From Phlyctochytrium arcticum (lineage: Eukaryota > Chytridiomycota > Chytridiomycetes > Chytridiales > Chytridiaceae), in assembly GCA_025602905.1 (NCBI GenBank), contig JAHLKI010000003.1, forward strand, positions 434,001 to 498,000: a stretch of DNA of 64,000 nt. The letters are read 5' to 3'. This document shows, piece by piece, positions 38,679 through 63,145 of this stretch (position 1 is the first letter of the stretch; every line of letters starts with the position of its first letter). The notes under the pieces were generated by a model, which searched no databases, was not told the DNA's origin, and saw nothing but the letters and a program-made list of their open reading frames with translations. Made by a program: the position numbers and the translations under genes.

Positions 38679-39023
38679 TGTTCCTATAACTATAATTCCA
38701 AGCTACATGTTAAACGAGAAACGATGTACTCAAGAGGGAGCGATTACAATTTTGAAATGCCCCTTGAGGCAGTTCACGCTCTATTAGTTCAGGACTTTCA
38801 TAGAATACAAAAGATTGACGAAAAGAAGGAGTATATCTTGGATATAAAAAAATTGGCAGATGTTGAACAAGACACGATCAAATACTTGGAGCTATGCATA
38901 AAACTGGATGAACTGAGGGTAAAATACAAGGAAAGCTTCAAAAAGAGAAGGTCAAAACGAAACAAGTGTTTGTCACGGACGACAAGCAGGATGATTAGTC
39001 GACCCGCATTCACATACGGGTAA
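38679..39023 (+). pseudogene. virus-like gene X, 3' part (5' end replaced by Helitron DNA)
   Basis: Coding sense begins at the junction: YNYNSKLHVKRETMYSRG, then FEMPLEAVHALLVQDFHRI, followed by a lysine-rich helical C-terminus (IKYLELCIKLDELRVKYKES) to the stop at 39023. The first 165 bases recur in reverse orientation at 60818-60992. There the 5' part of the gene is preserved and the 3' part is missing. I do not recognise the family. AT-rich composition differs sharply from the Helitron DNA to its left. Confidence 0.6.
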
Positions 39024-39107
39024 AATAGGGGTCGGACCTGTCTCAATTGAGACACTCATTGTTTTTTCACATCTTTACAATAAAGGAACACACGAACCAC
39101 GTGACAA

Positions 39108-40105
39108 ATGCTCAAGGTAGCAACAGACTGCTCCGGCCTTGAATGTCCACTAGTAGCTTTACAGAACCTCGGAGTGGAATATATTCATCAATGGAGCTCT
39201 GATATAGACAAGAATTGCCGCAAAATGATAGCAGCAAACCACCAACCCAAGCTGATATTTGAAGATATCACAACTCGAGACTTACAAGATTTGCCTGAAA
39301 TAGACTTGTATGTAGCTGGATTCCCCTGCCAACCATATTCATCTCTGCGGCACATGGGAAAGAAGACAAAGAGGATCCTAGAAAAGATGTTGCCGCACAC
39401 TGTATCGCGACGATTCTCCATACAAAACCGGCAGCATTCTTGTTGGAAAATGTCCCCCTCCTTGTGTCATATGACAAAGGACAGACCTTTGCGGATATTC
39501 TAGCAGCTTTAAATAAAACCAATGAATATACCATATCACATTCCGTATTGAACACAATGCATTACGGAATCCCGTAACACCGGAGACAATTGTATATCGT
39601 TGGAATTCGCAAGGATCAAGAGAACCGGATATTCAAGTTTCTCACACCCCATGATACAATACCCAAACTCAGTGAATTCTTGAAACTAAGAGATCGCCAT
39701 GAATATCAACCAGAAAGATATTCTTCTAGACTCATAGCGCGAATGCCTGATGATCATACTGAGAAATGTTATACTGTCAAACACCGCGGGGGAAATGGCC
39801 GATATGTGGAATGTTCCCCATGTATTACAACAAACACTAGCATATTCCTCACACAATACAATAGAGACCTTAGTACCTTGGAGAAACTTGAGTTACAAGG
39901 ATTTAACAAAGATCAGATGAATATAGTTGTTTCGGATTGGATACAAGCAAAACAGGTGGGAAATGCAATGAGTGTCAATGTGTTACAAGCCATATTCGTC
40001 GAGATATTTGCATCAATGGGAAGTTATATATACAAGAACTATCTGAAATATTACATCTTATTGTCCTCAGAGAATCTGAATGCATCAATAGCATTATTCT
40101 TATAA
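39108..40105 (+). pseudogene. C5 cytosine DNA methyltransferase, one frameshift and one nonsense codon
   Basis: These enzymes transfer methyl groups from AdoMet to cytosine C5. The order of motifs is complete: motif I (DCSGLECPLVAL), motif IV with the catalytic Cys (AGFPCQPYSS), motif VI (AFLLENVPLL) near 39438, motif VIII (RRQLYIVGIRKDQ) near 39585, motif IX (LEKLELQGF) near 39880 and motif X (QVGNAMSVNVLQ) near 39955. The frame must change at about 39372, and TAA at 39575-39577 sits where CAA (Gln) would be expected. The length of about 330 codons fits small viral or bacterial enzymes, not fungal maintenance methyltransferases. It has no introns. The AT-rich block and the recombinase next to it suggest a viral or mobile origin. 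Confidence 0.85.
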
Positions 40106-40234
40106 ACCGCGGGCCAAAATGCGCCTATTTTAACTTATTGCACTTAAGTAAAGCCCCATGGATACAGTATCTTAAAATACCTCAAGACTTTTGCCGCGTC
40201 CTGATATGGTACGGGCGAAAAGCTTGCAACATTA

Positions 40235-41480
40235 TCTAGTGATAACCCCGTTGAACCAAAGATTCTATTTGAGTTAATCTTCGCAAATGTACCGTACTTG
40301 CCACAAACACTCAGAGAATATGTGATTAGCCAAATCGAGTCACGTGATTTGGCTGAATTGGCAGAATCAGAAAAAGTTGATTTGGCTGATTCAGAAGAAT
40401 CATATGACTCGGACAATGACATGAATATCGAGGCACCACCAGAACCAGAACCATTGAAGATTACCAAGGACTTTGTTATGGAAAAGTTTCAAGCTGCCAT
40501 CATAGCAAAACCAGAATCAAAAGGAACACTAGTCACAAACAAGAACAGAATGCTCAACAAGTTTATGCCACATTTCAAACTGGACCAGAATATTGACTAT
40601 GACACTATTGAGGGTGAATGTTATGAATATCTGGAGAATTCAATGGTTCGTGGACCTCTTGAAAGGATTCAAAGCGTTTTTCAATCTTCTTACAGAAGAA
40701 GAGAGACACAAATTGATTGAGGATAACGACAAGATGTTTGGTACAAAAACTGGACAACTCATCACATTCCTCAACAAACAAATTAGAAGCGCAGAGACAG
40801 AGCAAGAATTCAGCAAGAAACAATCTGAACAATATGTTCCATATGACGAATTATGGACCCGAGTTGATACCAAATTGAACACCTTAGACAAGACAAATAT
40901 TCAAGAGATACAAAAAGGAATCGTTCTCTCATTATATGTCCACTATCTGCCCCGTCGCAACCCATATGCAACTCTGACTTATCGGACCGGTCTAAACTCA
41001 TATTCAAATGGTGTCATTACTTTGCGGGATTACAAGACTCACAACGTATATGGGGACTTTAAAATTCAATGTAATGACATTACAATTGACTTGATTGAGA
41101 CTTATCATTCACTAGCGGGTGACATGGCTATATTTCCAGAACATCAAGATTCTTCAAAGTGGAGCTCATTTGTCGCATCAATATTCAAGGAGATTATAGA
41201 TGTTCCATTGACCTTGACAAACTTGCAACAAAATTTCATTTGCTGGAATGTCAAAGAGGGACGTTTGAAGTTTATGAAGGAAAAGATTGAACTAGCCGAT
41301 GCCATGGGTCATTCCGTCACAGCACAAACCAGGGCCTACACCTATCGAACAGAGACCACTGAGGAAACAAATACGCGGAAGGTCTGGGATCAAGATGAGA
41401 TCGAACGTTTGAGAGATCTTAGTGCTGAATATGATTCTTTGGCGCCAGAAGAGAAAACAGTATCGAAGGAAGCTTTATAA
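40235..41480 (+). pseudogene. virus-type tyrosine recombinase (integrase), one frameshift
   Basis: Tyrosine recombinases integrate DNA by a covalent tyrosine-DNA intermediate. The open sense begins near 40235 (PVEPKILFELIF), with an acidic linker (ESEKVDLADSEESYDSDND). The core-binding part runs to about 40680, where the frame changes at a T5 run. The catalytic domain has YLPRRNPYATLTY (first Arg), VITLRDYKTHNVYGDF (Lys) and a C-terminal ELADAMGHSVTAQTRAYTY with His and the nucleophilic Tyr. This pattern resembles integrases of Polinton-like viruses, virophages and giant viruses more than fungal Cryptons. Where those have an LRH-type motif this one reads TNLQQNF, so the second catalytic Arg may be lost. 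The gene ends at 41480. The true start is unclear. Confidence 0.72.
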
Positions 41481-42376
41481 CAGTAACAGGGACGGATGAC
41501 TCGCTAGTTCAGGGGATGTGTAATTGAGTAGAAGTAATCCTATTGATCAAGGTCAGAGGCCGGTTATCATGTACAGAGGGGATGAGGCAGAGCCTCGCTT
41601 TTATAGTGTTTCTACAACAATTCCTACTTAAGGAAGGGGGATTGCAATGGGGCATCTTGGCCCCTACTTCTGCCAACCTTCCTTTCCTTGCCTTGGCATC
41701 TTTTCTGCCACAGTGTTCTCGACCAGGCCCCATGTCTATGCGTGCGGTCTTTCTACTGGAGGGAGTGAGATAGCCGCTAGGCCGCATCTCTGGCCACGCG
41801 CGACGCGTCCTGGCAGCTTAGCTTGCTGACACATTGGTTCGAGAGCGCGCTGGGAGGAATGTCCGAGAAATGCCTAAGTCCCCTCGCTCACTACTGACAC
41901 TACCCAACTACAAGGTTATCCTACAAGAGCATATATACAAAGATTGGAGCTGAGAACCGGGGGGGTACGATGGGACTATTTACAAGACAAACAGATGACT
42001 ATCTGTTACAGATGCCGTGCGCTATGGGTCGATCACTCCGAGGTCGAAGGTGAAATCCGCGGTAGCGCTGGACAATCCCCCTGACTCGTAGATGATGCCC
42101 CAGGACGTTCACTACTTTCATGCCCCAACACGTTGAGATCGACCGCCAAACCAGTAGAAGACGAATCCGCGATGGAGCGCTGGACAACGCTTCCAAGGTC
42201 ATGCGGTGCCCCGACGCGTCGCGTGCCTTGCGTAACATTGTGTGTGGTATGCGATATGAATGGACGTTTTCACTTGTGCAAGAATGGTTGGTGAGGCAAG
42301 CAAGAGGAAGAGATAGGCATAGTATCAGTAAATGAAATTGATGAAGAAAAAGTATACAGAATCCTGTAACTACACA
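41481..42376 (+). other. no convincing gene; boundary between virus-like DNA and retroelement
   Basis: AT-rich character ends about 41490. A related phrase (tccgcg, then agcgctggacaa) occurs at 42056 and 42167 and could belong to split repeats of the tyrosine-recombinase retroelement, whose 3' side this is. I could not define terminal repeats. Confidence 0.4.
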
Positions 42377-49207: not shown

Positions 49208-49505
49208 TAAATGCGGAGAAAAAACGAATGGGTGAGAACAAGGATGAACGCCCGATGGATGGATCGTGTGAAGAGTAGACCAACTGGCGAGTTTCTTTGG
49301 CTTGGAAGGGGACCCCGGTGGAAGAAAAGAGGCTACGCCCGTCCGGGCGCTTGTGGGAGATTGGATATTGCGCTTGCGCAGTCAGCGCAGCGCGGGGTGT
49401 CATTAGGCCAAAGTGGAGATCACGCGCGCCTGCATCGGCGGGGATAGATCCTCAAAACGCTGCTACCGTATCATCCAAGCACCTTGCGTTTTTCAAAGGA
49501 CATAT

Positions 49506-49901
49506 TTACAATTTAAATATAGTCTTTAAAATTTGTTTAGTTATGGGTTTGCAGAGAAACTCGTCTGCCCCAGCTTCTGTTGCAAACTGCTCCATATTCG
49601 AATCAGAAGAGATGGCTATGATGTGAATAGCATCTTCACCTGAAATCATAGACTCTTTCTCGAATGTGCGGACACCCATAATGAAGTTTAAACCGTTTTC
49701 TTTGTATCATGAGATGGGAATTATCTCTCCACCTAGTTTGATGTCAACAAATGCATGTGTAATATCCTCGTGAATTCTAGTAAACTCTCCTGCATCCAAT
49801 AAGGTAGTGAATAATAGAACACATGCATCAGGTATCAGGGTCTTGATGTGTTTCTTTAGAATTCTACATGTTAGCAAATTGTCATCCAACACTATGATCA
49901 T
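49506..49901 (-). pseudogene. stand-alone CheY-like receiver protein, copy 1, nonsense codon
   Basis: Receiver domains accept a phosphoryl group on Asp from a histidine kinase or phosphotransfer protein. The gene begins MIIVLDDNLLTCRILKKHIK with the acidic pair DD, then HAFVDIKLGG with the phospho-acceptor Asp. A TGA at 49707-49709 interrupts it where the partner copy at 51934 has CGA (Arg). The rest continues in the same frame: IHIIAISSDSNMEQ (conserved Ser) and EFLCKPITKQI (conserved Lys) to TAA at 49506-49508. The full length of 131 residues equals a bare receiver domain with no output part. It is the mirror copy of 51934-52326 within the large palindrome. Confidence 0.82.
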
Positions 49902-50032
49902 GATACTTTACTTAAAAGAAGCCATAAGATCCAGCCCCTCCGTCTCATTAGGTAAAAATACCCCACGCGATCCAAAATATTGCAGCGAGGGCTATCTGCG
50001 CTTCTTGCAACTTACTCAACACATTGCCATAC

Positions 50033-50109
50033 GAAAAAGTGGTGAAATACCTAGATTCAGGAATATGCCTTAGAGTAATAACTGATATTAGGTATTTCAC
50101 CACTTTTTC
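50033..50109. repeat. hairpin 1 of the virus-like block
   Basis: A perfect 19-bp stem (GAAAAAGTGGTGAAATACC and its complement) encloses a 39-base core. The core is the reverse of that in hairpins 2 and 3. Flanking sequence (caacacattgcc, then gcagcgagggc on its left) is also conserved. Confidence 0.85.
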
Positions 50110-50231
50110 ATGATACCTCTGTATACCACGACGCATCAAGTAGTCGGACGTTCCATGAAGTTCCCTAATGTACCATACACGAACCATACAGACCGCTTCT
50201 CTATCGCTAGAAAGCAAAGGAATCGTGTGAA

Positions 50232-50239
50232 TATAAAAG
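50232..50239 (+). promoter_or_regulatory. TATA box before ORF Z copy 1
   Basis: TATAAAAG lies 67 bp before the ATG at 50306. The mirror copy keeps a TATAAAAAG on the minus strand near 51588-51596, and sequence between TATA and ATG is well conserved in both, which supports a promoter. Confidence 0.5.
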
Positions 50240-50305
50240 CGGACGTCCCAGGCCGATTCCCCCAGCTTCACCACACCACACAAGCTACACACAAATCACA
50301 CAGCA

Positions 50306-50659
50306 ATGGACTACCTTGAAAAGAAGATGGAGCGTCTAATTGACCTTGACCAATCTGAATAATTCAAAAAGGCAACAAAGTTGATAAAGGAACACACTGA
50401 TCTACTAGCCACCATCAAGAAAACAAAGAAGTCAAAGAATATATGGACATGGCAGGTCAAGAGAGGGACACTAGTGAAGAAGTTAAAGTTCAAGATCCAA
50501 ACATGTTGTTGTGTGGATACATCATCAATGTCAGAAGAAGTGCGTGATCAGTACATGGTAGAGACAGAAGTTTGGGTGCAAAACGTGGACAGCATAGACA
50601 CAGTCGATCAGATCATAGCGGGAGATCCAAGTGGTGATGACGTCATATCAATAGATTAG
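50306..50659 (+). pseudogene. small virus-like ORF Z, copy 1, internal stop
   Basis: From the ATG at 50306 the frame reads MDYLEKKMERLIDLDQSE, stops at TAA (50360-50362), and continues in the same frame as FKKATKLIKEHTDLLATIKK to 50659. The N-terminal half is helical and lysine-rich. The C-terminal half has alternating residues (GTLVKKLKFKIQ) and an acidic end. The minus-strand gene at 51122-51515 is its diverged mirror copy. I do not recognise the family. Confidence 0.6.
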
Positions 50660-50793
50660 TTTGCACTTAGTTATGTATTGATAGAGTGGTTTGCACTTAA
50701 GTGGTTATGTGCTACTATATTACTGTATAACAAGCTTGCCTTATATGCAGCATTTTGTATCCTATATTCTCAAACTCTATACGATACAGGGCC

Positions 50794-50983
50794 GTGCACT
50801 TAAGGAGATCCCTACCACCCCAAATATGACCCTATATAAACCCCTAGTGTCACAATGCATATGTTTGTATACCACCAGATAGCCTCGCAAGAGGCTATCT
50901 GGAGGGTATGCACTGTGACACTAAGGGTTATATAGGGCCATATAGGGTCATATTTGGGGTGGTAGGGATCTACTTATGTGCAC
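50794..50983. repeat. centre of a large imperfect palindrome
   Basis: CCAGATAGCCTC (50875-50886), loop GCAA, and GAGGCTATCTGG (50891-50902) form a perfect 12-bp hairpin. Outside it, GATCCCTACCACCCC (50807) mirrors GGGGTGGTAGGGATC (ending 50970) around the same centre, 50888.5. Symmetry extends outward through ORF Z, hairpins 1 and 2, and both receiver genes. Confidence 0.85.
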
Positions 50984-51121
50984 GTGCTTTATTGTATAGA
51001 GTATAGAGTAGAATGTGGTCACAGAATTGAAAATATAAAATACAAAATACTGCACATAAGGAGAGCTTGCTATATAGTTATATAGATATATCGAAAGAAT
51101 CTTCACACTTAAGTGCAAGCC

Positions 51122-51515
51122 CTAATCTATCTCTATCGTACATATTCGCTGTCTCACTCGTCGCATATTCTCCTCTGGCTCATACAAATCTTCTGATTCA
51201 CTCTCCACCATTGGCTCTACTTTGATACACTTGGTCCACACTTCTAACACTTTGGTATACATCTCTCGTATGTCCATTGGTAAAGCTCCCGTATCCACAC
51301 GATGCTGCTTTCCTATGTTGAATGATAATGTCTTCTTATCTGTTCCCTCTTGTACGGTGATTGTCTGAATATCTCGTTTCTTCATCTCTGCCTTGATACA
51401 GTATAGGCAAGTCCCGCTTCGTACAGTACTTCTTCACCAATTTACTTGCTTCTTGGTATTCTTTTGATTGATCTAAGTTGATCAGGTCGAGAACTCGTTG
51501 GTCTAATTGATCCAT
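51122..51515 (-). pseudogene. small virus-like ORF Z, copy 2, frameshifted
   Basis: The start at 51515 reads MDQLDQRVLDLINLDQSKEY, parallel to copy 1. A frame change near 51390-51410 leads into the downstream frame (TVQEGTDKKTLSFNIGKQ, then LPMDIREMYTKVLEVW) ending at 51122. Copies 1 and 2 share order and spacing but have clearly diverged in protein sequence, so the palindrome arms are no longer being kept identical. Confidence 0.6.
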
Positions 51516-51704
51516 ATTGTAGCTTGTGTGATTTGTGTGTAGCCTGTGGGGTCTGGTGAACCTGGGGGAATCGGCATGGGACGTCTGCTTTTTATATTCC
51601 GATTCCTTTCCTTTCTAGCGATAGAGAAGCGGTGTATCGTTCGTGTATGGTACATTATGGAACGTCCGACTACTTGATGGCTCGTGGTATATAGATGTAT
51701 CATC

Positions 51705-51779
51705 AAAATCCGGCAAAATACCCCAGATCAGATATTACACTAAGACATATTCCTGAATCTAGGTATTTTGCCGGATTTT
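51705..51779. repeat. hairpin 2 of the virus-like block
   Basis: A perfect 18-bp stem (AAAATCCGGCAAAATACC and its complement) encloses the shared core (AGATCAGATATTACAC, then TAAGACATATTCCTGAATCT). The mirror of hairpin 1 within the palindrome. Confidence 0.85.
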
Positions 51780-51933
51780 ATGTGTTGCATTTTATTGAAT
51801 TGTGGGGCAATGTGTTGGGTATGTTGCAAGTGTGAAGCGTTGGTCCTCGCTGCATCTTATGGATCGTGTGGGGGTAATTATGCCTTATGAGGCGGAGAGG
51901 CCTGGATCTTATGTTTCATATAAGTAAAGCATC

Positions 51934-52326
51934 ATGATCATAGTGTTGGATGACAATTTGCTAACATGTAGAATTCTAAAGAAATACATCAAGAGCCTGA
52001 TACCTGCTGCATGTGTTCTATTATTCACTACTATATGGGATGCAGGAGAGTTTGCTATAATTAACGAAGATATTACACATGCCTTTGTGGATATTAAACT
52101 TGGTGGAAAGATAGATCCCATCTCACGATACAACGAAAACGGTTTAAACTTCATTATAGGAGTCCGCACTTTCGAGAAGGAAAGTATGATATCAGGTGAG
52201 GATGCTCTTCATATCATAGCCATATCTTCTGATCCGAATATGGAAGAAATTGCAATAGAAGCTGGATCAAACGAGTTTTTCTGCAAACCCATCACAAAAC
52301 AAATTATACAAACTATATTCTTGTAA
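51934..52326 (+). CDS. stand-alone CheY-like receiver protein, copy 2, intact
   Basis: This 130-residue protein has all hallmarks of a receiver domain: DD at residues 6-7 (IIVLDDNLL), the phospho-acceptor Asp in AFVDIKLGGK, the conserved Ser in IIAISSDPN and the Lys in FFCKPITKQI. No histidine kinase, HPt or DNA-binding partner is visible in the window. It could divert phosphoryl groups from the host's own phosphorelay, or signal by itself. This is inference. The reading frame is open from the ATG at 51934 to TAA at 52326, one of the few undamaged genes in the virus-like blocks. Fungal response regulators are normally larger and fused to other domains, so a bare domain supports a mobile or viral origin. 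Confidence 0.82.
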   Translation: MIIVLDDNLLTCRILKKYIKSLIPAACVLLFTTIWDAGEFAIINEDITHAFVDIKLGGKIDPISRYNENGLNFIIGVRTFEKESMISGEDALHIIAISSDPNMEEIAIEAGSNEFFCKPITKQIIQTIFL

Positions 52327-52387
52327 TTCAATAAAGTAAATTTGAAATTGTAAAAAAATGGGTGATGAATATGTCTGAGGTGGTTGT

Positions 52388-52612
52388 ATGGGAACCTTCA
52401 AAGCAGATGGTGTTGTGTGTACAACCTGTAAGCGCACATATTGCAAAAAATGTAATAAAAAGTTTCAACCGAATCGATCTGATTGTAAAGGTTGTAGAGC
52501 AGAAGAAAAAGTTTATGTACTAGCATTTGACACAAAACAATATGATAATCATGAAGGATGGGAAGATTTGGATGAAACTAGACAAATTTTAAAAGCTATA
52601 TTAAGATTGTAA
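52388..52612 (+). CDS. small Cys-rich zinc-binding protein, probable RING-like
   Basis: The frame encodes VVCTTCKRTYCKKCNKKFQ, then SDCKGCRAEEKVYVL, giving three CX2C pairs spaced as in the second half of a RING or related finger. A stretch upstream (MGDEYV, then TGA, then GGC) suggests that the true start lies at about 52358 and that a stop cut off the first part. The tail is acidic (NHEGWEDLDETRQILKAIL). Its place just after the receiver gene, with only about 60 bp between, is typical of compact viral spacing. Function unknown. Confidence 0.5.
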   Translation: MGTFKADGVVCTTCKRTYCKKCNKKFQPNRSDCKGCRAEEKVYVLAFDTKQYDNHEGWEDLDETRQILKAILRL

Positions 52613-52614
52613 AT

Positions 52615-53474
52615 ATGACATTTCAAAAGCGCAAGGTAATAGCTAAGACTTCACGGGAACAGTACTATACCAACAAAGAACTAATACAGTAGATTCTCTT
52701 GTGACTGACATGGTGCCGTTACTCATCAAGAATGATATTGAGTGGTTCATTGACTCGTCTGCAGGTGATGGCTACCTCGTGTTCAAGCTTAAACAGATCT
52801 TACCGAATGTCAACTATGTCTCATATGATCTTCACCCATCAGATGATATATATTCTGATGTGATTTCACAGGATTTCTTATAGACTAAAGGAGACATGAA
52901 TAACGTTGCTATAGGGTTCAATCCGCCTTATGGTGTGGGTTGTATGTTGTCTGTCAAGTTCATTAGACACGCTGTGAAAAGCTATAATGCAAATTTGATA
53001 TGCATGATTCTCCCTCATCGCGCTACTGTTGCCCGTTATGATGGATTCAAATTGTCTTATAAAAGAATTGTCCCAAAGGGATCGTTTTACAAACACGGGA
53101 TAAAGAAAGTATTTCACTATTATGCATTCTGGTCTGTCTTTGAAAAAGGATCACCATCACCAATAGAGAAGCTTGGAACATGTATCCCTCAACGCAATAT
53201 TCTTGGCATTCAACGATTCAAACCACATGCCATGTTATTAAAGAATATCCTGTTGATCGGAAGATATTATACAAAATTCAAATGGCATTGGGTCACGGAT
53301 ATTCAATTTGATCATATACCTGCACATACGGAATATATTGCAATCTATCTTGAAGAATATGTTGGTGAAAAACAAGTAAATGATATTGTGAATACAGTGG
53401 AAAATTATCGCTCTGAGGTCGTATTCTACAAAAGATCCATCTGTATACAAGATGTCGTGAAGGCTCTTGTTTGA
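52615..53474 (+). pseudogene. N6-adenine DNA methyltransferase, frameshift plus nonsense
   Basis: These enzymes methylate the exocyclic amine of adenine in DNA. The gene starts MTFQKRKVIAKTSREQYYTN (52615). A frame change near 52688 leads to VPLLIKNDIEWFIDSSAGDG, motif I, which binds AdoMet. A YDLHPSDD segment follows. TAG at 52881-52883 then interrupts the frame. It resumes in frame with NNVAIGFNPPYGVG, where NPPY is catalytic motif IV. The C-terminal part (LICMILPHRATVARYDGF, then WVTDIQFDHI) reaches 53474. The length of about 285 codons suits viral or phage-type orphan enzymes. Together with the C5 methyltransferase at 39.1 kb, the block encoded two DNA-modifying activities. Confidence 0.75.
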
Positions 53475-53527
53475 ATATGCGGATTGAAAATATTTCATGA
53501 TAAAGAAAAGCTTTGTTTTAAAACGAA

Positions 53528-53890
53528 ATGCATCGAGTCATGTCTTTGCGACCAAACAAACCAGCTATTCAGATTCAACTCGAGGATTGTCGTGTACTTA
53601 GGTTGTTTGTCAATAATGAAGAGGAATTGGCCAAAGTTTGCCTCTCATTGATTGGTAAAGACTTGTATATCTTTGTCCCGATTTCACCCTTGAATCATGA
53701 CATGTTTAAAAGGCTCATTTCTATTTCAAGCAGATTGAAAGTATCGGGGAATATCAAATTGCGGAGGTCCTTCTTAAAGCGTGGATATCTCATGCTGGGT
53801 AGTCACAAAATAGCGTTCGGGTGCGATAAGAGGACTTATGTTGAGCATTATGATCAGAAAACCAGATTTAAACTTCAAAATGTTTCAGAA
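53528..53890 (+). pseudogene. virus-like ORF of unknown function, 3' end cut by Helitron
   Basis: The ATG at 53528 begins MHRVMSLRPNKPAIQIQLED and continues LRLFVNNEEELAKVCLSLIG and DLYIFVPISPLNHDMFKRL up to about residue 120. After 53890 the open frame enters GC-richer Helitron sequence that reads as low-complexity Ser/Pro/Leu, so the rest is a chance extension. I do not recognise the family. It follows the adenine methyltransferase by 53 bp on the same strand. Confidence 0.5.
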
Positions 53891-60817: not shown

Positions 60818-61138
60818 TTTTTTTATATGCAAGATATACTCCTTCTTTTCGTCAATCTTTTTTATTCTATGAAAGTCCTGAACTAATAGAGCGTGAACTG
60901 CCTCAAGGGGCATTTCAAAATTGTCATCGCTCCCTCTTGAGTACATCGTTTCTCGTTTAACATGTAGCTTGGAATTATAATTATAGGAACATATAACAAC
61001 TCGAGACGCATGTTGTCCATTGATCAAATTCGTGACATTGTTAATCAATGTGGTTATGTTTTCATTCCCTCTGACACTGATGCTAATATGGAAACAATGA
61101 ACAACTTGGAGAAGAGAACTCTCTGATAGAAGAATCAA
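60818..61138 (-). pseudogene. virus-like gene X, 5' part (3' end replaced by Helitron DNA)
   Basis: On the minus strand the frame starts near 61138 (MILLSESSLLQVVHCFHISI), continues VRGNENITTLINNVTNLING and reaches the part shared with 38679-38853 (YNYNSKLHVKRETMYSRG, then FEMPLEAVHALL). It ends at the Helitron border with poly-A-like codons. The two copies overlap by about 165 bases. Together they outline one protein of roughly 210 residues with no recognisable domain. Confidence 0.6.
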
Positions 61139-61277
61139 AAACTGTGTTTACTCACATATTAGTGGAAATCAAGTAGGCAATCTTGGAAATCTCTACTTTA
61201 GCAATGGTGATCTTTATAATAAAATGAATTTGAAGGAATGATTAACCGCTCCATCCCTTTGTCAAAGCATTATTACT

Positions 61278-61470
61278 ATGGGATGCCATGAAGATGCTAT
61301 CTGCCCTCTGTGTTGTGAAAAACTTGCTGACAAGAATACATGGGGGTCTTGTTCATATTGCACTTTTGAATTCTGTATGTCTTGTAGGGAAAAGGGAATG
61401 GCAGAATGTATGAAGAAAGATATATTTTCGTTGCCCTGTTTGTAGAGAAGTTCAATTTCAGATGGTATGA
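61278..61470 (+). pseudogene. RING-finger-like protein, frameshifted
   Basis: The frame from 61278 shows ICPLCCEKLADKN, then SCSYCTFEFCMSCREKG and, after a frame change near 61425, FRCPVCREVQF. The order CX2C, CX2C, CX2C, CPVC with a Tyr/Phe-Cys core matches a RING-type finger. Such small finger proteins (putative E3 ubiquitin ligases) are frequent in large DNA viruses. Upstream sense (SHISGNQVGNLGNLYFSNGD, about 61150-61235) may be part of the same gene, with a stop near 61240. Confidence 0.5.
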
Positions 61471-61584
61471 ACTTGTGAAAAAACAATGAGTGTCTTTCAA
61501 GGGTCTTTTGAGGGTCATTTCAGGGTGGATCCGTCTCAATAGAGATGGGCCTTTTTCGCTGTGTCTTGCGCGGGACATTGGAAC

Positions 61585-62190
61585 TTATCCGTAGGTCTGT
61601 TCCCAGTAACATTTTGTACATACTGTTCTCCATGAGTCAGTCTTGGGAATTGTCCTTCTACATTTCACTGTCTCACACGGAATATCTGTTCGGCCCGGAT
61701 ACATATCAGCCTTGGTCTTGCATGTTACTTTGAGTCCTTTGCTTTGTTGCCAACACGAATGCAATTCTCTCTCCAGCGTTTTGTTGGCGTGACGGCAAAG
61801 AATTTGTCGCATGTTTGACACAAATTGTTACATTCTGAACATGGGTGACATAGTTTACTTGTATCGTTTCCTGCATATTTACTTTGACACATTTTGATAC
61901 TTGCATTCTCACCATACATTTCTTTAAAACGTGTATCTTCTTTCAGTTTCCTCTTTATCTCTTTACTCTGCTTTATATGTTCCTCTTTCATGAAGCGTTT
62001 GACACATGTATTCCCTACTATGAGTTCCATCATATTCAGCCTATTCCATATGTGACAGTTTTCTAATATTCGATGTGTACAGATACAATGATTATCCTTT
62101 TCCGTTACACCGACAACGTCCCATTCATCGAGGGCTGATTGGAATTCATCGGATTCAGAATATGATAGAAGCGCCTTCTCAAACTTTGCT
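61585..62190 (-). pseudogene. Cys-rich protein of a type seen in large DNA viruses, frameshifted
   Basis: Minus-strand sense begins near 62190 (FEKALLSYSESDEF) and reads EWDVVGVTEKDNHCICTHRI, then MMELIVGNTCVKRFM. That CxC...NELxVGNxCxxRF-like pattern I associate with uncharacterised zinc-binding proteins of giant viruses. A lysine-rich segment follows, then CHPCSECNNLCQTCDKFF. After a frame change near 61745 come CKTKADMYPG and CTKCYWEQ, ending at 61585. An ATG at 62033 lies inside the conserved part, so the real start is upstream. The family link is from memory of the pattern and unverified. Confidence 0.5.
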
Positions 62191-62213
62191 TGTAACTAAA
62201 CATATCTCGTGGC

Positions 62214-62462
62214 TTATACTTCAATCATCAGAAATTCATTTTCTCTGTTTTTTGGTGCGTTTGGGCCTGAATGCATTGGCTTCTCTTGTTTTGTTATGGT
62301 AATGTAATTTGACCAGTGTGATTTGCCTCCCTTCAAAATATTGGTGACCGTGGCCCTGTCCAGGTTGAGCTGTTTGGACAATTGTCGCAGCGATGAGGCT
62401 TCAAAGTGCTGTTCGGTACCGAATCGATTCACTGTTACTTGATAGGTATAATATAAAAACAT
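62214..62462 (-). CDS. small helix-turn-helix protein, possibly partial
   Basis: The frame contains ASSLRQLSKQLNLDRATVTN followed by ILKGGKSHWSNYITI, which fits a helix-turn-helix. It is similar in style to the NUMOD-like repeats found with homing nucleases and in giant-virus proteins. The 82-residue length suggests a domain remnant. Minus-strand sense further upstream to about 62560 is in another frame. Function unknown beyond probable DNA binding. Confidence 0.4.
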   Translation of the reverse strand: MFLYYTYQVTVNRFGTEQHFEASSLRQLSKQLNLDRATVTNILKGGKSHWSNYITITKQEKPMHSGPNAPKNRENEFLMIEV

Positions 62463-62580
62463 CGTGGGACTTCAGTCTGTGGTTCATATTTAGTACATGA
62501 TATTTTTCTTTTGTTTGATGCATTTGGAGACTTGATGTTCCGAATGTTTCTAATGTTTCGTAATGTATAGATGTATCATC

Positions 62581-62655
62581 AAAATCCGGGGAAATACCCA
62601 AGATCAGATATTACACTAAGACATATTGCTGAATCTAGGTATTTCCCCGGATTTT
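62581..62655. repeat. hairpin 3 of the virus-like blocks
   Basis: A perfect 18-bp stem (AAAATCCGGGGAAATACC and its complement) encloses the same core as hairpin 2 with one or two substitutions. Arms differ from hairpin 2 at matching positions on both sides. Downstream, ggcaatgcggtgagtaatg, then ttgcaag and ccctcgctgcat, parallels the flank of hairpin 2. Confidence 0.85.
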
Positions 62656-62792
62656 ATGTGTTGCATTTTTTGATTCGTATGGCAATGCGGTGAGTAATGT
62701 TGCAAGAAGCACAGTTAGCCCTCGCTGCATCATAATAATCGTGAGGAGAAGAGTGACATCACAATGATATCCATTGATATCAAGATCAGCCC

Positions 62793-62800
62793 TATAAAAG
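62793..62800 (+). promoter_or_regulatory. TATA box before the 62864 ORF
   Basis: TATAAAAG stands 64 bp before the ATG at 62864, the same spacing as for ORF Z. A second TATAAAAG occurs at 63141-63148. Confidence 0.45.
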
Positions 62801-62863
62801 GACCAATGCGTTTCGATTATTTCCGGAGGAAAAAAGATATTCTCAGTAGTTGAAGTATAAGCC

Positions 62864-63145
62864 ATGACAGCGGCCCTCAAGAAAGTAGAATACAAGGGAA
62901 TCACCTGGTTCAAGAATATCAGCAGCAAAGGAGGAGCACAGGACCATGTCATTGAGAATTTGAAACCAGACGAACTACCTGCTCTGACCACGGACCACGG
63001 AGGCAGAGGCCATACTTTTGAGAGGACAGGAAAGACATTACGGCGCATTCCGTCCACGGGTCCAGTGGGAAAGTGGCAAATGCAAAGAACGGGAAGAAAA
63101 GTATCCCACACATACGCGAGGACACGAGATTTTCGGGAAGTATAA
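62864..63145 (+). CDS. small hypothetical protein of the virus-like block
   Basis: The 93-residue frame starts MTAALKKVEYKGITWFKNIS and is rich in Lys, Arg, Gly and Thr (GRGHTFERTGKTLRRIPS, then QMQRTGRKVSHTYARTRD). It is basic enough to bind nucleic acid. A TATA box lies upstream at ORF Z-like spacing and another directly at its stop, which points to a following transcription unit that I cannot resolve. The 199-codon frame on the opposite strand over this region is probably a shadow. No family recognised. Confidence 0.45.
   Translation: MTAALKKVEYKGITWFKNISSKGGAQDHVIENLKPDELPALTTDHGGRGHTFERTGKTLRRIPSTGPVGKWQMQRTGRKVSHTYARTRDFREV

Follow-up and report, generated by a model that had tools for sequence, protein, structure and literature searches.

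We interrogated a 64,000-nucleotide stretch of DNA (the window) of the chytrid Phlyctochytrium arcticum (Chytridiomycota), which belongs to contig C3; other C-numbers denote other contigs of the same assembly. Positions 49516-52319 align with their own reverse complement in one alignment at 72% identity, with the axis at 50888/50889. This bears out the palindrome reported in a preliminary description of this DNA, and the mirrored receiver gene, ORF Z, and stem-loops named there are indeed found in both arms, around an apex with a GCAA loop (Table 1). The layout is viral arm, one hairpin, viral arm, with neither a target duplication nor host DNA in between. Both arms represent the same end of an element, the receiver end, whose gene order (110-128-aa gene, receiver, ORF Z, hairpin) is common to C6, C26, C41, and C18. 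The outer ends of both arms are lost, and within the window the 110-128-aa gene is present in the right arm only.

Table 1 Features of the palindrome and of related fragments in the window
Feature	Position	Strand	Match or remark
Further fragment with C5-cytosine methylase pieces, probably PLV interior	38860..41600	.	PF00145; 70% DNA identity across 224 bases to interior points of the C26 and C23 elements
Left viral arm, receiver end, ORF Z allele 1	49481..50847	-	85% to C6:412827-414247; 88.6% (746 columns) to the C25 mini-element
Receiver-like gene, left copy, frame broken by one in-frame stop	49512..49901	-	44% aa identity to the receiver of element C26:370323-395460
Stem-loop, left, in the divergent intergenic region between receiver and ORF Z	50033..50109	.	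Inverted repeat; related copy at 62512-62729
ORF Z, left allele, reads towards the hairpin, frame interrupted	50306..50659	+	94-95% DNA identity to C6/C25
Shared terminal palindrome TG...CA, long left half, short right half	50848..50920	.	Apex CCAGATAGCCTC-GCAA-GAGGCTATCTGG
Right viral arm, receiver end, ORF Z allele 2, outer limit approximate	50921..53854	+	Matches to C26, C4, and C6
ORF Z, right allele, reads towards the hairpin	51122..51515	-	98% to C26:11.4k
Stem-loop, right, between receiver and ORF Z, 18-bp perfect stem	51705..51779	.	Inverted repeat
Receiver-like gene, right copy, intact, 130 aa	51934..52326	+	PF00072, E 0.04, below cut-off
74-aa cysteine-rich ORF, in a stretch missing from the left arm	52388..52612	+	
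Two ORF pieces, the second with an NPPYG motif	52701..53474	+	phrog_5172, E 6.9e-6, function unknown
Homologue of the 109-110-aa gene adjoining the receiver in the C26, C41, and C18 elements	53594..53845	+	43% aa identity
Further fragment with a copy of the stem-loop region	60990..62900	.	Related stem-loop copy at 62512-62729

The left arm borders repeated sequence, probably a retroelement, at about 49480; copies of this repeat reach 49480, which is the end of the query used. At the amino acid level, the left ORF Z is 63-65% identical to its counterparts in the terminal inverted repeats of the C26, C41, C18, and C1 elements. The right arm matches C26:11406-12125 at 86% in its centre-proximal part, the C4:1364k locus at 87% in its distal part, and C6 at 81% as far as 53854. 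ORF Z has no Pfam match above any cut-off, and the C41 homologue of the right receiver matches PF00072 above the cut-off (E 1.1e-7). A search of a viral contig collection with the receiver protein gave two pattern matches and confirmed no relative. No Pfam match was obtained for the second ORF piece at 52701..53474; its NPPYG motif is presumably of the N6-adenine methylase type, and the two pieces are a possible methylase remnant. The window also contains transposon-like genes and more fragments of this kind of virus, at 38.9-41.6 and 61.0-62.9 kb; relatives of the latter fragment are found near those of the former at C5:1146-1151k. Neither a tRNA, by a scan, nor a match to a D5-type primase-helicase was detected inside the window.

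Palindrome-capped elements in the P. arcticum genome

Using 50034-52326 as the query against the fungus's own genome, we obtained 65 matches, the window itself counted. The best single-arm copies end at the central hairpin, which is where the preliminary description had proposed to look for such ends: those at C6, C25, C26, and C5/C4 reach the hairpin, stop there, and continue into other DNA, and C36 holds a short end piece that stops at it. C8 carries a lone hairpin. The stop of the C6 arm at the apex, beyond which lie long open frames, may or may not mark an opening there. ORF Z matches occur as inverted pairs, and in each of the five pairs that were compared the members form the terminal inverted repeats of an element of 19-33 kb.

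Nineteen elements of 8.6-39.3 kb are bracketed by TG...CA palindromes that face the right way; 17 of them measure 15.8-39.3 kb, and the other two 8.6 and 9.1 kb. This number includes C1:1308257, without which there would be 18 elements, 13 with the primase-helicase and 13 with the capsid match described below. An earlier tally of 20 had included C45:20147-39570, which was rejected because both of its palindromes are right ends. At the complete element ends that we read, the palindromes are mostly 60-68 bp long, start with TG, and finish with CA. The palindrome set comprises 38 distinct sequences matching one motif in the stretches covered, with three exact duplicates dropped and other types (for example, that at C4:1370k) uncounted. 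Most of them (35/38) lie 0-6 edits from their own reverse complement. The palindrome of the window lies 28 edits from its own, the left half being similar to the long C6/C26 class and the right half to the short C25/C8/C5 class; C26:12112 (30 edits) and C36:185253 (24 edits) are uneven as well.

Exact 5-bp duplications are present at 14 of the 15 independent insertions for which both flanks were read, namely 13 bracketed elements, the C25 mini-element, and the lone C8 palindrome; C1:1308257 was left out of this count, being the same insertion as C3:1361088 in duplicated DNA. The exception is C6:103483-127749, whose flanks are inverted copies of each other. Asymmetric loops, without which a palindrome is uninformative on flip/flop, were found in seven insertions and are direct between the two ends in four and inverted in three. 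Relative to the flanking repeats, the loop is turned over in C26, C41, C18, and C3:1.36M and not turned over in C23, C6:0.78M, and C25. These insertions thus show a flip/flop terminal hairpin next to inverted repeats, as poxviruses and asfarviruses do. The terminal inverted repeats measure 1.04-1.16 kb and are 88.7-99.8% alike in four of the five elements compared, and the fifth has a 5.99-kb repeat at 99.97%. In the four elements compared in detail, the palindrome is followed inwards by the inverted repeat of about 1 kb with ORF Z.

Because single-arm copies stop at the hairpin and such palindromes cap 19 integrated elements, the sequence comparisons support the view that the arms of the window are virus genome ends and the central hairpin their terminal structure. 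The viral end with a hairpin telomere suggested in the preliminary description gains the same support, from the palindromes at both ends of the 19 elements, the 5-bp duplications, and the flip/flop loops. From these integrated copies we infer covalently closed ends.

The bracketed elements on C18 and C2 each have two different telomeres and intact duplications. The lone palindrome on C8, with its duplication AGCTG, is what recombination between the two terminal palindromes of one provirus would be expected to leave. Together, these three cases suggest that telomeric ends may have been exchanged between lineages and recombine with one another. The telomere motif pair was also encountered in two viral contigs (L074 and L075); neither has a tblastn match to element proteins, and we took these occurrences as chance. 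By its open frames, L075 reads as a tailed-phage contig.

In the element pieces that we read, the encoded proteins are a candidate capsid protein, an A32 ATPase, a chromodomain-bearing rve integrase, the receiver, and a long, fibre-like protein. A D5_N/DUF5906 primase-helicase (PF08706 or PF19263) is matched in 13 of the 19 bracketed elements, D5 being the poxvirus type of primase-helicase, and the capsid is matched in 14. PolB_2 (PF03175), the protein-primed polymerase expected of a Polinton/Maverick, has no match in any bracketed element (0/19) and 14 matches elsewhere in the genome. In a family search that covered element C26 only, the A32-type packaging ATPase scores above the cut-off (Pox_A32, E 7.8e-10). 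The 416-aa capsid candidate matches Capsid_N below the Pfam cut-off (E 6.7e-4); it has 57 genome matches and relatives in Spizellomyces, Powellomyces, and Gaertneriomyces, and is 43% identical to S. punctatus SPPG_02195, a locus that may be the published S. punctatus PLV. The predicted structure of this S. punctatus homologue is poor (mean pLDDT 48.7); most of the named entries among its 50 listed fold matches are virus major capsid proteins (best E 4.7e-10), with TM scores by query length of only 0.17-0.28, and we took these matches as no more than a hint. A solved-structure search with the capsid candidate gave only weak dUTPase matches (E 0.06-0.07), and searching the viral contig collection with the capsid alignment yielded 41 pattern matches, none of them confirmed. 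On account of the candidate capsid, the A32 ATPase, the rve integrase, the inverted-repeat ends, and the relatives in chytrids, we file the elements as polinton-like viruses (PLVs), the capsid fold being weakly supported by sequence and model. The inverted repeats of four of the five compared elements and the lengths of 17 of the 19 agree with this filing, passages of PMC12220804 giving PLVs a size range of 14-40 kb.

Ancestry of the arms and origin of the junction

The ORF Z alleles of the two arms belong to separate clades, the left with C6/C25 and the right with C26:11.4k, and the ORF Z tree rejects the sister arms that a one-genome concatemer junction calls for (AU p 1e-4). Sister arms are not rejected by the receiver tree (AU p 0.18). 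Hairpin class is uncoupled from ORF Z class, C25 combining a left-type ORF Z with a short hairpin and C26:11.4k a right-type ORF Z with a long one, indicating that ORF Z and hairpin may each have their own history. Differences between the receivers (dS 0.31, dN 0.091) are enriched at synonymous sites (p 3e-4), and much of the arm divergence therefore appears to have arisen while the genes were functional. Since the receiver tree leaves sister arms open, gene conversion could have replaced one ORF Z once the junction existed. Later indels could account for part of the difference between the hairpin halves; two other palindromes are uneven too.

We consider it probable that the palindrome represents the fused receiver ends of two different PLV genomes of P. 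arcticum with a single terminal hairpin. A fusion of two viral ends is preferred to a fresh one-genome concatemer because the arms are of different lineages and the hairpin halves unlike. Among the genome matches and palindromes listed, no second arm-hairpin-arm junction was seen, so the fusion event is represented by one case. C36:185253-185318 was considered as a second heterologous junction and rejected, its palindrome being uneven and neither side holding a recognised viral arm.

The sequences show that such elements sit in the chromosomes as complete linear units flanked by 5-bp repeats. In the proposed course of events, two ends of different lineages would meet in the window at one hairpin apex, each arm and each half keeping its own ancestry. 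A two-genome concatemer or recombinant could form in a co-infected cell and then be inserted. By another route, two resident proviruses could recombine at their terminal palindromes, and an inversion between two palindromes would give exactly arm-hairpin-arm. After the fusion, the arms would decay and other repeats would cut them.

The preliminary description had read the locus as an integrated concatemer junction, and this holds in so far as a junction of two different genomes is possible. Its one-genome form, in which a junction was integrated with identical arms that diverged later, we regard as unlikely, even though two like ends around one hairpin are its expected geometry, the receiver tree allows it, and a 45-bp block near the central hairpin is 96% alike between the arms. 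Against it stand the hairpin halves of different classes and the ORF Z alleles of different clades, each with 94-98% relatives elsewhere; moreover, neutral divergence would be expected after integration, whereas the receiver differences show an excess at synonymous sites. A narrower form of the fusion, in which proviruses recombined or were break-joined at their palindromes and no replication intermediate was involved, is a serious possibility, though one to which we give somewhat less than an even chance. Palindromes pair in both orientations, the solo palindrome of C8 with its target duplication fits palindrome-palindrome recombination, and more viral fragments, along with transposon-like genes, lie nearby. 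However, neither a reciprocal product nor a matching flank was identified, and the two-telomere elements with intact duplications suggest that exchange also took place before integration.

Wrong joining of two viral ends during assembly is very unlikely. Such repeats are hard to assemble, and a 100% identical copy of 38860-41600 on contig C72 shows duplicated or haplotypic sequence nearby, but a fold-back would give identical arms, whereas these arms differ by 28% and the hairpin halves differ too. Even less credible is that a host gene pair underwent ordinary inverted duplication or that two unrelated elements were inserted next to each other. Gene pairs in inverted orientation are common, and at C4:900156/900741 two palindrome-bracketed elements do lie head to head about 585 bp apart. 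Adjacent insertion, however, leaves two hairpins with DNA between them, as at that C4 locus, and the window has one hairpin and no DNA between; its genes, moreover, match viral elements.

Relation to known viruses and implications

In the main texts, mostly open-access, that our literature search covered, PLVs in a chytrid (PMC7805220) and hairpin telomeres in large DNA viruses are already known, and we found no report of palindromic or hairpin ends in PLVs, nor of palindromic flip/flop telomeres, rve integration, and a D5-type helicase together in PLVs. The main text of Bellas and Sommaruga (2021, PMC7805220) describes the S. punctatus-group PLVs as chytrid-integrated, with terminal inverted repeats, target duplications of 5-7 bp, a capsid of the double-jelly-roll lineage, an ATPase, and an rve or tyrosine integrase. 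The P. arcticum elements are like them in chytrid integration, terminal inverted repeats, an ATPase, an rve integrase, and short target duplications, but 'hairpin' occurs 0 times in that main text, whereas the complete P. arcticum ends that we read are palindrome-capped and flip/flop.

Passages of PMC7909422 describe linear genomes with hairpin telomeres in flip and flop forms for poxviruses, asfarviruses, and Kaumoebavirus, concatemeric intermediates for poxviruses, and a 102-bp hairpin adjoining a 1032-bp repeat for Kaumoebavirus LCC10. The P. arcticum elements share with this group an inverted repeat of about 1 kb capped by a flip/flop hairpin and a D5-type primase-helicase. They differ from it in being 8.6-39.3 kb long and chromosomal and in having 5-bp duplications and, as seen in C26, a gene for an rve integrase. 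Stems of poxvirus-type telomeres are incompletely paired, whereas those of P. arcticum are nearly perfect, and their closed ends are deduced from integrated copies.

Polintons/Mavericks are integrated and carry an rve integrase, a capsid gene, a packaging ATPase, and inverted repeats, according to passages of PMC12220804 and PMC12747079. The P. arcticum elements likewise are integrated and have an rve integrase, a packaging ATPase, a candidate capsid gene, and inverted repeats, but none of the 19 matches PF03175, and their duplications are 5-bp, not 6-bp; protein-primed ends would presumably need no hairpin. Parvoviruses also have terminal palindromes with flip/flop orientation, and their rolling-hairpin replication yields head-to-head junctions. 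They are, however, small ssDNA genomes with an HUH initiator, whereas the P. arcticum elements carry dsDNA-virus genes and a D5-type helicase.

PLVs are widespread, and most of them, according to passages of PMC12747079, lack the protein-primed polymerase that would explain end replication. The chytrid copies offer a readable record, with palindromic caps, flip/flop loops, a solo cap, and one fused junction, and most of the elements have a D5-type helicase. We see about an even chance that in this PLV lineage, which lacks a protein-primed polymerase and has a D5-type primase-helicase, poxvirus-like closed hairpin telomeres solve the end problem and a retrovirus-type integrase inserts the genome with both telomeres intact, the chromosomes keeping fossils of flip/flop, solo telomeres, and, in the window, a two-genome head-to-head replication junction. 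If true, PLVs that are small and integrate would have hairpin telomeres in common with the large poxvirus/asfarvirus group, and the end-replication problem would be testable in the fungus itself.

Repeated sequences in the window

A stem-loop recurs in the window, and may be an origin or promoter element. The stretch at 38860-41600 has a copy of 100% identity on another contig of the assembly (C72:32945-35681), which represents either duplicated sequence or an alternative haplotype.

Copies of the recurring stem-loop in the window
Copy	Position	Location
1	50033-50109	One arm, between divergent receiver and ORF Z
2	51705-51779	Other arm, between divergent receiver and ORF Z
3	62581-62655	Elsewhere in the window

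Internal repeats and ends of integrated elements

Several integrated elements elsewhere in the assembly, filed as polinton-like viruses (PLVs), stand out by their repeats or ends. In the C41 element, a sub-stretch (L051, C41:135001-145000) contains open frames repeated with a period of 2617 bp in at least three copies, each comprising a fibre-like start and a 292-aa ORF. The element at C1:1324343-1343380 carries a terminal inverted repeat of 5.99 kb (99.97% identity), by which its capsid end is duplicated; the hairpin is absent from the right copy of this repeat. It looks as if one end was recently copied onto the other.

The C6:103483-127749 element lacks a target duplication, its 27-bp flanks are mutually reverse complementary, and a 601-base stretch in its middle (L073) contains sequence coding for the candidate capsid protein. 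Two bracketed elements, C18:177965-203194 and C2:1321699-1340540, have terminal palindromes that differ between their ends, with the 5-bp duplication intact; in the C18 element, one end matches the C26 type and the opposite end the C41 type. The palindrome C36:185253-185318 (L072:753-818) is uneven, and its halves start like different telomere types (TGTCATAG versus TGTCACAG).

A lone palindrome and the PLV load of the genome

On contig C8, a single 61-bp telomere palindrome (C8:569203-569263; L039:5203-5263) has no partner and is flanked on both sides by the 5-bp duplication AGCTG. It looks like a solo telomere, the remnant left after the two ends of a provirus recombined, and is comparable to a solo LTR. 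Across the whole P. arcticum genome we found 57 matches to the candidate PLV capsid protein, with 20-100% identity to the query and representing several divergent lineages. This fungal genome is heavily invaded.
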